Shown here: piece by piece, positions 1,848-21,262 of the stretch
Layout of the letters: the number at the start of each line of letters is the position of its first letter
Numbering within the stretch: position 1 is the stretch's first letter
IMG/VR virus record: IMGVR_UViG_3300018481_000004
Span: 64,001 to 101,942 of that record
Source of the DNA: a virus
Strand: one strand, 5' to 3'
DNA: 37,942 bases
Program-made: the position numbers and the translations under genes
Notes under the pieces: model-generated
What the model was told of the DNA's origin: nothing
Databases searched by the model: none
What the model saw: only the letters and a program-made list of their open reading frames with translations

Positions 1848-3611
1848 ATGGGTGCGAAGTATTCAGATCATCTGAAGCCACAGAACACGCCGCAGTCGGA
1901 GAAGGTCGATCCTCGCCAAGTTCAGAACAGCGCGGGCGGGTACACCTTCCAGGTCGAGCCGCTGCAGAGACTCGAGCGGTTTCTAATTTTGGGCGCCGAG
2001 GGCGGCACGTATTACGCCTCCGAGCGCAAGCTCGTGATTGAGAATGCCGGCTGCGTTCGGAAGTGTCTCGACACGGATCCGGTGCGCGCTGTGCACCTCA
2101 TCAGAGACATCAGCATGCAAGGGCGCGCGCCCAAGAACGACGCCGCGATCTTCGCGTTGGCGCTGGCCGCCGCGCACCCCAGCCCCGCGGTTCGCGAGCT
2201 CGCGCTCAATGTGCTGCCGGTGGTTTGCCGAATCGGCACGCACCTCTTCCAGTTCGTCGAGGCAGTCGACGGCCTGCGCGGCTGGGGCCGCGGCCTCCGG
2301 CGCGGCCTCGGCAGGTGGTACGAGGGCAAGTCGCCCGAGCAGCTTGCCTATCAGGTGCTCAAGTACCAGGCGCGGAACAAGTGGTCACACCGTGATGTGC
2401 TGCGCCTGGCACACCTGACGCCGCGAACGCAGGAGCCCGTTGTCGTGCAAAGTCTCGAGCTTGCCGACACGATGCCGGCCGTCGCGGATCGTGACCTCAA
2501 GCCGGACAACCAGTCGATCTACCGCTGGGTCATCGGCGCCGAGCTCGGCGAGCGCCACGTCGTGCGCAAGAGCCGGGGCGTGACCGTGCAGTATCCCGTC
2601 GTCAAGGAGCTGCCGCCGCTGCTCGCGGCCTACGATGCGCTCAAGACCGAGACCGAGCTCCCGAAGGTGCTCGCGGCCATTCGCACGCACAAGCTCACGC
2701 ACGAGATGATTCCAGGCACGTGGAAGAGCCGCGCCGAGGTCTGGGAGGCGCTTTCGGAGCATATGCCCATGCACGCGCTTGTCCGCAACCTGGCCAACCT
2801 CACCGCGAGAGGTGTCATCGCGCCTTTGGGCGACAACACGAGGCGCATCGCAGCCCAGCTGCTCAAGCACGACGCGATCACGAAGTCGCGCCTGCACCCG
2901 ATCGCGCTCTTGAGTGCGCTACGCGTCTACGAGTTAGGCCATGGTTTGAAGGGGTCCCTTTCGTGGGTCCCCGATCAAACCATCTGCGCCGCGCTCGGCG
3001 AGGCGTTCTACCTGGCGTTTCAGAACGTCACCTCAACCGGGAAGAAGCACCTGCTCGCGCTCGACGTGTCCGGTTCCATGGGCGACGGCGAGATCGCAGG
3101 CGTGCCAGGGCTGTCGCCGCGCGAAGCGAGCGCAGCCATGGCCTTGGTCACGATGCGAACGGAGCCCGAACATCACGTGGTGGCCTTCACGGGCGGCGAC
3201 AGACCCCCGTCATGGTTTCCCGGCTTCAGCGGGCGCCACCCCATGACCGAGGCGTGCTCGCCTCTTCCGCTTCGGCCGGAGATGACCTTGAAGCAGGTCA
3301 TCGACAAGATCAGCGGACTGCCATTCGGCCCGACCGACATCGCACAGCCGATGCTGTACGCGCTCAAGAATGACATCCCGGTCGAGGCCATCGTGATCTA
3401 CACGGACAGCGAGACCTGGTGCGGTGAGCCTCACCCGCACGTGGCGTTACACATGCTTCGCATGAAGAGGGGGCTGCCCGTGAAACTCGCCGTGTGCGCG
3501 ATGACGGCCACCGAGTTCACCGTGGCCGACCCGAACGATCCAAACTCGCTCGACATCGTGGGATTCGACACGGCGACGCCTTCCATACTTGCCGACTTCG
3601 TGCGCGGCTGA
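1848..3611 (+). CDS. rsr: Ro60-family Y RNA-binding protein (TROVE + vWA)
   Basis: 587 residues, close to the 500-600 usual for bacterial Ro (Rsr). The first ~380 residues are helical HEAT-like repeats typical of the TROVE module: the N-terminal segment with the motif NSAGGYTFQV, then RFLILGAEGGTYYASE, an IRDISMQGRAPKNDAAIFAL helix pair and the KSPEQLAYQVLKYQARNKWSHRDVLRLAH region (split here for description). The C-terminal ~180 residues are a von Willebrand A fold with a MIDAS: DVSGSM at 406-411, Thr496 and Asp520 (YTDSETW). In this family the ring of repeats binds misfolded RNA 3' ends in its cavity and Y RNA on its outer surface, and bacterial members guide exoribonucleases such as PNPase. 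Three Y RNA genes follow immediately. A strong GGGGAGGGG ribosome site precedes the ATG. Phage-borne Ro proteins are uncommon. Confidence 0.95.
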   Translation: MGAKYSDHLKPQNTPQSEKVDPRQVQNSAGGYTFQVEPLQRLERFLILGAEGGTYYASERKLVIENAGCVRKCLDTDPVRAVHLIRDISMQGRAPKNDAAIFALALAAAHPSPAVRELALNVLPVVCRIGTHLFQFVEAVDGLRGWGRGLRRGLGRWYEGKSPEQLAYQVLKYQARNKWSHRDVLRLAHLTPRTQEPVVVQSLELADTMPAVADRDLKPDNQSIYRWVIGAELGERHVVRKSRGVTVQYPVVKELPPLLAAYDALKTETELPKVLAAIRTHKLTHEMIPGTWKSRAEVWEALSEHMPMHALVRNLANLTARGVIAPLGDNTRRIAAQLLKHDAITKSRLHPIALLSALRVYELGHGLKGSLSWVPDQTICAALGEAFYLAFQNVTSTGKKHLLALDVSGSMGDGEIAGVPGLSPREASAAMALVTMRTEPEHHVVAFTGGDRPPSWFPGFSGRHPMTEACSPLPLRPEMTLKQVIDKISGLPFGPTDIAQPMLYALKNDIPVEAIVIYTDSETWCGEPHPHVALHMLRMKRGLPVKLAVCAMTATEFTVADPNDPNSLDIVGFDTATPSILADFVRG

Positions 3612-3621
3612 TACTGAGATC

Positions 3622-3762
3622 ACGTCGAGCCGATGATCGGGGGTTATCAATCGGGTCCGGGGGTCGCTGGTTCAAATCCAGCCCACGCTGTCGAAAGATG
3701 AAGTGGTAGCTCAGCCTGGCAGAGCACCGGAGTTTGCCCCCTGTCGCTTCCTTGTTCGACGT
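3622..3762 (+). ncRNA. Y RNA 1, YrlA-type with permuted tRNA-like module
   Basis: Outer stem ACGTCGA (3622-3628) pairs perfectly with TCGACGT (3756-3762); inner Y stem GGGGG (3639-3643) pairs with CCCCC (3737-3741). Between the two stems lie the strands shared by all three RNAs here: GAGCCG after the outer 5' strand and a TTGTTCGA block at the 3' strand. Above the Y stem is a tRNA in permuted order: anticodon-stem equivalent TCCGG (3656-3660) with CCGGA (3727-3731), five-base variable loop (3661-3665), T arm GCTGG-TTCAAAT-CCAGC (3666-3682), an acceptor stem CCAC/GTGG (3683-3686, 3703-3706) closed by a C-GAAA-G tetraloop (3692-3697), then T8-A9 and a D arm GCTC-AGCCTGGCA-GAGC (3709-3725) with the conserved GG. 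This is the architecture known for Salmonella YrlA. It starts 10 bases after the Ro stop codon. Confidence 0.93.
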
Positions 3763-3831
3763 TGAGGCCGAGGCATCGAAGAAAATGAAAAGGCTAGTTG
3801 GCAGAGAGGTCGACGCCTGATAAGGAAGTTT

Positions 3832-3910
3832 GAGTCGAGCCGTTGATCTGAGGTTATCGCTTTTACCGAGTCCACCTCAGGTCGTCCCTTTGTTCGACTT
3901 TTTGATTTTT
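3832..3910 (+). ncRNA. Y RNA 2, minimal type
   Basis: A ~70-nt RNA: outer stem AGTCGA (3833-3838) with TCGACT (3894-3899), an asymmetric internal region (GCCGTTGAT on the 5' side, GTCGTCCCTTTG on the 3' side), inner stem CTGAGG (3848-3853) with CCTCAG (3875-3880), and a 21-base loop beginning TTATC. The unpaired strands are nearly the same as in the other two copies, which marks the Ro-binding region. A U-rich tail (3899-3910) follows and could terminate transcription. No tRNA-like module is present, so it resembles the short Y RNAs that accompany YrlA. Confidence 0.9.
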
Positions 3911-3985
3911 CTCCCGAGCCGTCGTGCTGAGGTTCTCATAGGGTTTGAACTCCTCGGTGCATCTCCTTGTTCGGGAGGTTTTTTT
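3911..3985 (+). ncRNA. Y RNA 3, minimal type
   Basis: Outer stem CTCCCGA (3911-3917) pairs with TCGGGAG (3971-3977); inner stem CTGAGG (3927-3932) pairs with CCTCGG (3952-3957, one G-U); the loop begins TTCTC and holds GGTTTGAAC, like a T-loop sequence. The 5' GAGCCGTCG and 3' CTCCTTGTTCG strands match the other Y RNAs, while both stems differ in sequence but keep pairing. Seven T residues (3979-3985) directly after the stem make its 3' end look like an intrinsic terminator. It begins immediately after the T tail of Y RNA 2 and ends 14 bases before the helicase start. Confidence 0.88.
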
Positions 3986-3999
3986 CTAATGCCACGCAA

Positions 4000-5679
4000 A
4001 TGCGAGATGGATACTTGATCTTGCGTGACTACCAGCGTCGCGCCCTCGCGCAGGTTGCGCGTAGCAAGTGCCGCGCGTCGTTGGTGGTGGCGCCGACGGG
4101 GGCGGGTAAGGGCACGATGGCGGTCGCTCTGCTCGAGAGGGCCAGCCGGAGGGGCGAGCGGGCGTTGTTTCTGGTGCATCGCCGTGAGATCGTGCGCGAC
4201 GTGCGCGATCGGCTCGCAGAGCGCGGTATTGATGCCGGACTCATCCTTTCAGAAGAGCCCAATACTCCGGCGCGGGTGCAGGTGGCCAGCGTGCAAACTC
4301 TTCTGCAATCGTCTGCACGCGGCTTTCGCCTCGTCGTGGTCGACGAGGCGCACCACTACTTAGCCGACGAGTGGCACGCGACGCTACGCCGCGTGGGCAA
4401 GGGTGCCCGCTTGGTCGGTTTCACAGCGACGCCGCAACGCCAAGACGGCAAGCCTTTGGGCGATGTATTCGACGAGCTGATCGACGTGGTGAGCTACTCG
4501 GAGCTCGTGCGCGACGGGCACCTTGTGCCGTGTCGTGTGCTGCGCGCGCCCGCACCACTGGGCGCCGATCTGGCCATGTCGCCCGCGGCGGCCTACTTGC
4601 AGCACGCGCGTGGTTCGTCGGCGTTCGTGTTCGAGTCGACTGCGCTGCGCGGTCGTGCAACTGCCGCCGAGCTTCGCGCCGCGGGAGTCCGCGCCGAGTT
4701 TGTCATGTGGACCATGCGCCGCGACGAGCGCGACGCGATCGTGCGACGACTGCAAAGTGGCGAGCTGCAAGTCGTCGTCAATCTTTACACGATGACAGAG
4801 GGCGTCGACGTGCCGCGCGTCAACACGATCGTGCTCGCGCGTCCGTGTCGCTTCGCGGGCGCCTACATCCAGATCGTGGGGCGTGCGCTTCGCGCGCACC
4901 GTGGCAAGCGAGAGGCTTTGCTGCTCGATCTTACCGGGGCGAGTTACCTCCACGGCTTGCCGATCACTGATCGCGCGTACGCCCTGCACGGCAAGCGGCC
5001 GATCGCGTTTTCGGGCGACGACGTGAGCGAGTATCGCGCCGCACCGAAGGAGCGCGGCGCCTCGACCGTGCTCGCTCTCGGCCTGGTCGAAGCAGATGAA
5101 GCCTCACAACGTGCGCACGGTCGTCGCGTGGTCGACTGGAGTAAACAGCCGCTCGGGAAGGCCACCGATCGCGAGATCGCGACAGCGGTAGGCGTGTCAT
5201 CGGCGCAGGTGCGCCTCGAACGTCTAGCGCGCGGGATACCGCCCTACGGTGGCGAGAGAAAGAAGCCGATCGATTGGGACGCGTGCAAACAGCTCGGCAA
5301 GATTCCCGATCGTGAGCTCGCCGAACAGCTCGGCGTCGATGTCAATGTGGTGGGAGCGGCGCGAAAGCGGCGCGCAATCCCGCTGTTTCACGCATGGATT
5401 CCCGAGGCGTTCTGGGACGACAAGCCGCTCGGGAAAGTGGCAGACGCCGAGCTTGCTGCACAGCTCGGCGTCGATAAGCGCGCCGTCGCCCGTGCGCGTC
5501 GCCGCCGCGGGCTTGCTGCGGTAGAGCCGTGGGTGGACTGGGATGCGGAACCACAACTTGGGCGCGTGCCCGATCGTGAGCTCGCCGAAAAGTACGGAGT
5601 GTCTCGCAACACTGTCGCGAGCGCGCGCGTTCGGCGCCTTGGAAGCTCTCGCGCGCGCTCGTGCACCGGTTTAGATTGA
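4000..5679 (+). CDS. DEAD/DEAH-box helicase with four C-terminal HTH repeats
   Basis: 559 residues from ATG 4000, chosen because earlier in-frame starts lie inside the Y RNA 3 terminator. Superfamily 2 motifs: Walker A APTGAGKGT (31-39), DEAH (115-118), TATP (142-145), and motif VI QIVGRALR (291-298). This is the RecQ/UvrB-like two-domain layout of type III restriction/DEAD enzymes that act on DNA or RNA. After about residue 375 come four repeats of ~42 residues (starting near 378, 424, 471, 512), each with D-W, LGK/R, D-R/A-E-L/I-A, GV and a basic R-x-x-R end: a tandem helix-turn-helix array. Such HTH repeats probably bind nucleic acid in a sequence-dependent way. No clear ribosome site precedes the start. 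A 9-codon frame (3989-4018) with GGGAGG upstream overlaps it. Confidence 0.88.
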   Translation: MRDGYLILRDYQRRALAQVARSKCRASLVVAPTGAGKGTMAVALLERASRRGERALFLVHRREIVRDVRDRLAERGIDAGLILSEEPNTPARVQVASVQTLLQSSARGFRLVVVDEAHHYLADEWHATLRRVGKGARLVGFTATPQRQDGKPLGDVFDELIDVVSYSELVRDGHLVPCRVLRAPAPLGADLAMSPAAAYLQHARGSSAFVFESTALRGRATAAELRAAGVRAEFVMWTMRRDERDAIVRRLQSGELQVVVNLYTMTEGVDVPRVNTIVLARPCRFAGAYIQIVGRALRAHRGKREALLLDLTGASYLHGLPITDRAYALHGKRPIAFSGDDVSEYRAAPKERGASTVLALGLVEADEASQRAHGRRVVDWSKQPLGKATDREIATAVGVSSAQVRLERLARGIPPYGGERKKPIDWDACKQLGKIPDRELAEQLGVDVNVVGAARKRRAIPLFHAWIPEAFWDDKPLGKVADAELAAQLGVDKRAVARARRRRGLAAVEPWVDWDAEPQLGRVPDRELAEKYGVSRNTVASARVRRLGSSRARSCTGLD

Positions 5680-7417: not shown

Positions 7418-7730
7418 GGCTCTGGGCTCGCCAAGAATCCGCACGATTGCGTGCGCTTGCGAGGCGCTAGCAAGGCTCTGGGCTCGCACTCTGGGCTCTG
7501 GTAGCGGCACGGCATACCAGAGCCCGCAGAGTCAAGCCCAGAGCCTGCAATTTGAGTTTGAATATGAGTCCAGAGCCCAGCGTCCGAACATGCGAGCCCG
7601 CGGTATTGCGGGCTCTGGGCTCGCACAGTGCGGGCTCTGGGCTCGGAGAAAAAGCGGGCTCACTTTGAATATGAGTCCAGAGCCCAGCGTCCGAACATGC
7701 GAGCCCGCGGTATTGCGGGCTCTGGGCTCG
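7418..7730. repeat. GGCTCTGGGCTCG repeat cluster with a 67-bp direct repeat
   Basis: About ten copies of GGCTCTGGGCTCG or its reverse complement CCAGAGCCC. Two 67-base units, 7557-7623 and 7664-7730, are the same as far as I can read; each starts TTTGAATATGAGTCC and contains a hairpin GAGCCCGC-GGTATT-GCGGGCTC (7594-7615 in the first). Pieces of the downstream leader hairpin (GCGAGGCGCTAG at 7459, GAGGCGCTAGGG at 7759) also occur here, so the stretch may be decayed or alternative leader material, or a binding array. Confidence 0.75.
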
Positions 7731-20887: not shown

Positions 20888-21262
20888 ATGGAAGAGCAAC
20901 ACGACGAACGAATGAACCGGCTGCTGGTGCTCTGCCAAAAAGCGTGGCCACAGCATGCTGGCTTTCGCATCCGCGTTGCCGGCGTCGACGGCTGGGTGTT
21001 CTGCGTCGACGAAAACGGCTTCGATGACAAGGAGTGCTTCGCGGTCTACTACGTGCCCGACCCTTGGCAGGCTCTCGAGACCGCGTTGCTGGCTCTTTCC
21101 GGCACGCGCGCACCGTGGGCGCAGCAGCTCGCCGAGAAGTTTCTGGCGGATGCCGTCCAGCTCGACGTCTTGCGCTCTGTGTCGGCCACCGAGCGCGCTC
21201 GGGTGTACCGCGATTGCGCAAGTCGCCTCATGCGTGCGAGCGCCTGGCCGGGGATGACATGA
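20888..21262 (+). CDS. Hypothetical protein
   Basis: 124 residues. N-terminal helix (ERMNRLLVLCQKAWPQH), strands (GFRIRVAGVDGWVFCVDENG) and a helical C-terminal half (PWQALETALLALSGTRAPWA). It follows the previous stop by 1 base and overlaps the next start (ATGA). Unknown family. Confidence 0.6.
   Translation: MEEQHDERMNRLLVLCQKAWPQHAGFRIRVAGVDGWVFCVDENGFDDKECFAVYYVPDPWQALETALLALSGTRAPWAQQLAEKFLADAVQLDVLRSVSATERARVYRDCASRLMRASAWPGMT

Follow-up and report, generated by a model that had tools for sequence, protein, structure and literature searches.

In Deinococcus radiodurans, Y RNAs gate the Ro60 orthologue Rsr and tether it to PNPase (PMC4726728, PMC8058203), and the tRNA-like domain of the Y RNA is said to bind PNPase (PMC8394870); within the cited papers, PNPase tethering is demonstrated in D. 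radiodurans only. Ro60 or TROVE proteins have also been noted in phages (PMC7765460, PMC7824862, PMC8504454, PMC12363180, PMC8375218), a Ro60/TROVE gene is carried by Borgs as well (PMC11208441), and a passage of PMC7765460 that cites a review credits several phages with YrlA. Ro-like genes are present in 340 phage records, mostly annotated as such, and in no fewer than 373 viral contigs. Phage Ro60 is not new, nor is phage Y RNA, and the view of an earlier, sequence-only reading of this DNA that known Ro-Y RNA systems are cellular is contradicted by those 340 records, by the structure of the phiLo protein (9l5y) and by the Y RNAs found beside most of the viral Ro genes examined.

The locus described here lies in a stretch of 37,942 nucleotides (the window), which corresponds to positions 64001-101942 of a 101,942-base IMG/VR virus record. 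The contig encodes head-decoration and structural proteins, an endolysin, two integrases, a primase/helicase, a Dda-like helicase, DNA polymerase A and ThyX; the head-decoration, endolysin, integrase, primase/helicase and PolA genes bear out the description of the genome as phage-like, and the two integrases suggest a temperate phage. The 102-kb record may be incomplete, a fragment of the genome. The locus itself is real and complete, and is confirmed as a Ro60 gene with three Y RNAs. Its features, in window coordinates, are the following:

1848-3611, plus strand: Ro60/Rsr protein, 587 aa, complete (Pfam, phmmer, AlphaFold2, Foldseek)
Residues 25-357 of this protein: TROVE HEAT-repeat ring
Residues 406-411 (DVSGSM; D406-S408-S410) with T496 and D520: intact MIDAS of the vWA domain
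Residues 194-214: low-confidence insert
3622-3762, plus strand: Y RNA 1 (RNA1), 141 nt, long form (R2 78.5 bits, E 1.7e-16; Rfam YrlA 34.1 bits; fold)
3832-3900, plus strand: Y RNA 2 (RNA2), 69 nt, short form (R1 33.4 bits, E 3.7e-5; fold z -3.75)
3911-3977, plus strand: Y RNA 3 (RNA3), 67 nt, short form (R1 33.6 bits, E 3.3e-5; fold z -3.2)
3978-3986, plus strand: U-tract (T7), intrinsic-terminator-like, directly 3' of the outer stem of RNA3

Both Pfam domains of the protein score above their curated cut-offs, TROVE with 7e-41 and 141 bits (cut-off 23) and vWA_Ro60 with 1.4e-51 and 175 bits (cut-off 27.7). Among PDB sequences searched with phmmer, D. radiodurans Rsr (2nvo) is the closest (2e-106), human Ro60 follows at 7e-106, and vertebrate Ro60 entries also match at E <1e-100; the protein belongs to PHROG 850, “RNA-binding protein”. 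An AlphaFold2 model computed from 50 related sequences has a pLDDT of 89.6, and Foldseek aligns it with the solved Ro60 structures 2i91 and 9nep at a TMq of 0.83 (TMt 0.93 to 2i91). The TROVE ring is present in this model, and the claim of a full-length TROVE/vWA protein stands on the domains, the model and the conserved key residues. In the PDB phmmer alignment, K172, R176 and H189 stand opposite K170, R174 and H187 of human Ro60, which are RNA-contact residues.

Rfam alone recovers little of the RNA part of the locus. The YrlA model (RF02553) matches RNA1 only (3626-3753, E 7e-4), with 34.1 bits against a gathering score of 69, so new covariance models were needed. The material fetched for them comprised 80 viral Ro loci plus one from a single-sequence scan, 80 cellular loci and seven annotated phages; because that scan of viral contigs yielded one locus, an alignment was used instead. 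The 7-mer GGTTATC occurs upstream of viral Ro genes at 34 of 84 loci, compared with 2 of 84 in the background, and a scan for this motif brought out a uniform element with an outer stem, a CG bulge, GGUUAUC and a 3' strand of the CUUGYCC type. Alignment A2, of 47 short Y RNAs, gave the model R1, and alignment A3, of 32 long ones, gave R2; no sequence of the window is among their members. For the acceptor-like helix in A3, most pairs change on both sides with pairing kept, as do several pairs of the T-arm and D-arm, and these pairs had no role in selecting its members; the outer-stem pairs were used for selection, and their covariation is therefore not independent evidence.

R1 and R2, independent of the window, match all three RNAs directly downstream of the Ro60 gene and nothing else, either in the rest of the window or in the remaining 64 kb, which upholds a count of exactly three. 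The sequence-only reading had looked to bacterial Y RNA models for recognition of these RNAs; the newly built models provide it for all three, and Rfam YrlA for RNA1 only and below threshold. The same Rfam model, at its gathering score, finds no Y RNA at eight other phage Ro loci (L002-L009), which points to a narrow model, and several Y RNAs missed there score more than 80 bits with R2. Our covariance models indicate that the Rfam YrlA model misses most of the Y RNAs beside viral Ro60 genes. Elsewhere in the window, imperfect inverted repeats at 7473-7546 and 21029-21137 give sub-threshold Rfam matches to mir-934 and a trypanosome snoRNA, which are probably chance names on hairpins.

T runs follow both RNA2 and RNA3, as they would if the hairpins were ordinary terminators or chance repeats and not Y RNAs. 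The outer stem of RNA3 enters seven Ts, so that RNA3 may double as a terminator, and shuffles give sites like the terminator-like one at 3961-3979 plus its T run equally often. As a chance control, we used a descriptor made of the outer stem, the CG bulge, a GTTATC-type motif and the 3' motif, which at a score of at least 17 found 79 sites beside the Ro genes of the viral collection but none on the opposite strand or in shuffles; the three RNAs of the window score 19.7-20.3. These controls, the independent R1/R2 matches, the shared Ro-binding motif and the tRNA-like domain of RNA1 lead us to reject a terminator or chance origin, which we regard as exceedingly improbable. A sigma-70-like promoter was searched for near the Ro-Y locus and none was found. 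The Y RNAs are adjoined at 3967-5679 by a DEAD/ResIII helicase with C-terminal HTH-like motifs, whose listed frame, starting at 3967, overlaps RNA3; its true start is probably a TTG at about 4015-4021, beyond the array.

All three RNAs share the Ro-binding strands that had been described for them, namely GAGCCG after the outer stem, GGTTATC or GGTTCTC, and CTTGTTCG or TTTGTTCG. The further claim that the stems vary yet keep pairing is borne out by a comparison of RNA1 with RNA3, in which four outer-stem pairs differ on both strands and still pair. RNA2 and RNA3 consist of a Ro-binding stem, an inner stem and a loop only, with no tRNA-like domain. In RNA1, the full R2 model and the fold agree on a Ro-binding stem joined to a permuted tRNA-like domain in the YrlA order, which the sequence-only reading had missed: a T-arm of 5 bp with a 7-base UUCAAAU loop (GCUGG-UUCAAAU-CCAGC), an acceptor-like helix with a GNRA cap (GAAA) and a D-arm (GCUC...GAGC). 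RNA1 is YrlA-like and, being under the gathering score, not a member of RF02553.

From what is directly observed (the genes, the RNA families, the protein fold, the clade, the arrangement, the single orientation and the close spacing), we read the locus, with a probability of about 0.55, as a phage-borne Ro60/Y RNA ribonucleoprotein in which the short RNAs would gate the protein and RNA1 could tether host PNPase. Ro60, the tRNA-mimicking Y RNA, the two minimal Y RNAs and a terminator at the third would probably form a single transcription unit, whose primary transcript would be processed into the Y RNAs. By comparison with Deinococcus and Salmonella, each Y RNA would use its conserved bulged stem to bind the exterior of the Ro60 ring, RNA2 and RNA3 would act chiefly as gates, stabilising Ro60 and regulating entry to its cavity, and the tRNA-like domain of RNA1 could dock on host PNPase in a RYPER-like particle, so that structured or damaged RNA would be fed to host decay during infection. 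On this analogy, the locus likely functions as an RNA-surveillance or decay particle, and the role in RNA decay or surveillance held by the sequence-only reading is plausible. The 102-kb contig, possibly incomplete, contains no gene for PNPase, RtcB or an RNA ligase, and such a partner would thus have to be supplied by the host, unless the phage encodes it on a part of its genome that the contig lacks.

The tRNA mimic of RNA1 would also fit the main rival, a decoy and repair model in which RNA1 would lure host anticodon nucleases as a decoy while Ro60 would retain damaged tRNAs or other RNAs for repair, with phage translation protected as a result. It has been suggested that YrlA may competitively inhibit a nuclease that cleaves tRNAs, and RNA-repair operons, including those of Salmonella, contain rsr-yrl genes (PMC7790460); TROVE genes of jumbo phages have been classed with RNA repair (PMC7824862), and that of crAss001 is early, being expressed within 10 min (PMC8375218). 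However, RNA1 lacks an anticodon arm because the Ro-binding stem occupies its place, two of the three Y RNAs have no tRNA-like part, and RtcB and RNA ligase are missing from the contig, itself possibly incomplete, so that we reject the locus as an RNA-repair operon, with rtcB next to rsr or Y RNA genes. We consider the decoy and repair model somewhat unlikely.

The wider occurrence of Y RNAs was surveyed at 88 Ro loci of the viral collection, some of them near-duplicates. At least one Y RNA is present at 65 of these loci, at least two at 51, at least three at 34, and 13 at a single one; they lie only upstream of Ro60 at 47 loci and only downstream at 15, and every R1/R2 match is on the Ro strand. 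Most of the viral Ro60 genes examined therefore travel with their own Y RNAs, so phages carry the whole ribonucleoprotein. Cellular Ro loci show the same picture, and tandem Y RNAs are common there too; the ideas that three copies are special or that such arrays are unique to phages were accordingly rejected. Successive Y RNAs at viral loci are most commonly separated by 9-10 nt, which suggests that they are transcribed together and processed with a spacer of fixed length; RNA2 and RNA3 are separated by 10 nt.

Long and short forms are mixed at 38 of the 88 viral loci. Short and tRNA-mimicking Y RNAs stand together in large tandem arrays of 13 (L031), 9 (L088), 7 (L033) and 6 (L052) members, of which we found no description in a literature search that did not extend to the key primary papers on bacterial Y RNAs. 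Four Y RNAs appear to carry an unpermuted tRNA-like element in their loop (L033:1795-1918, L033:1928-2069, L052:5982-6122 and L105:4980-5111), and ARAGORN calls tRNA-Cys and tRNA-Ile inside two of them. Such loops appear to be a second way to graft a tRNA onto the Ro-binding stem. As a tentative and rather doubtful suggestion, arrays with interchangeable loop modules (none, a permuted tRNA or an unpermuted one) could provide phages and bacteria with swappable adapters, through which each Ro60 ring would meet several partners during infection; the trio of the window would be a small version with one tRNA-mimic adapter and two plain gates.

Y RNAs that seem to hold an unpermuted tRNA-like element are also in keeping with a role in the quality control or storage of phage RNA, whereby Ro60 and its Y RNAs would protect or mature structured phage RNAs and host decay would not be redirected. 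The Ro loci of several phages (Sparky, Sixama, Big4, L010) are embedded in tRNA arrays or border on them, but ARAGORN detects just one tRNA in the 64 kb left of the window and none within it, and we hold this role to be distinctly unlikely here.

In the Ro tree, viruses and cells interleave, with 20 changes between them, at least 8 of which are forced by well-supported branches, indicating repeated gene movement between viruses and cells. The Ro60 of the window falls in a 16-row group (support 98) of 7 viral members and 9 cellular ones from Polyangiaceae and other Myxococcota, and a myxobacterial host is, from this grouping, a reasonable guess. Its relatives in the clade carry Y RNAs downstream of Ro60, as the window does, and some add one upstream. 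The grouping with cellular loci that have downstream Y RNAs would suit a locus picked up as cargo from a bacterium, perhaps a myxobacterium, with no benefit to the phage; this we find very improbable, since the Ro60 frame is open with all key residues, the three RNAs have compensated stems, the long end branch (1.06) disfavours a recent copy, and the Ro-Y locus recurs in related viral contigs.

With the whole ribonucleoprotein on board, cultivated phages, Bixzunavirus and Sparky among them, offer a way to test what a phage gains from Ro60. Viral Y RNAs often number several per Ro60 gene and differ in their loop modules, and this wider pattern of arrays is the part most worth pursuing.

Among the systems compared, the viral loci L010, L011 and L034 belong to the same clade as the window and have three downstream Y RNAs each, long and short forms mixed; the Myxococcota loci of Sorangium, Polyangium and Minicystis share the clade, the downstream position and the mixture. 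The Ro60 proteins of both sets are nevertheless only about 50% identical to that of the window, and the cellular loci often add an upstream Y RNA. The Rsr-Y RNA-PNPase machine of D. radiodurans (RYPER) has an orthologous Ro60 (2nvo) and a Y RNA that, according to the literature, is bound by its lower stem, whereas the locus of the window is phage-borne, counts two minimal Y RNAs among its three, and comes with no PNPase gene. The rsr-yrlBA-rtcBA operon of Salmonella likewise has a Ro60 gene and multiple Y RNAs within a single operon, and its YrlA has a permuted tRNA-like domain as RNA1 does; in contrast, the contig of the window has no rtcB, and RNA1 scores 34.1 against the RF02553 gathering score of 69. 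In the actinobacteriophages Sparky, Tonenili/Bixzunavirus, Sixama, Big4 and Cashline, Ro60 is about 39-43% identical to that of the window and accompanied by Y RNAs detected with R1/R2, but it belongs to another clade and its Y RNAs are mostly upstream. The Ro60 of Thermus phage phiLo (PDB 9l5y), for which our literature search found no paper, is a phage TROVE protein too, although it shares 18% identity and a TM of 0.52 with that of the window and is deposited as a dimer. With these resemblances and differences, the locus of the window joins a recognised class of Ro60-plus-Y-RNA clusters present in many phages and bacteria.
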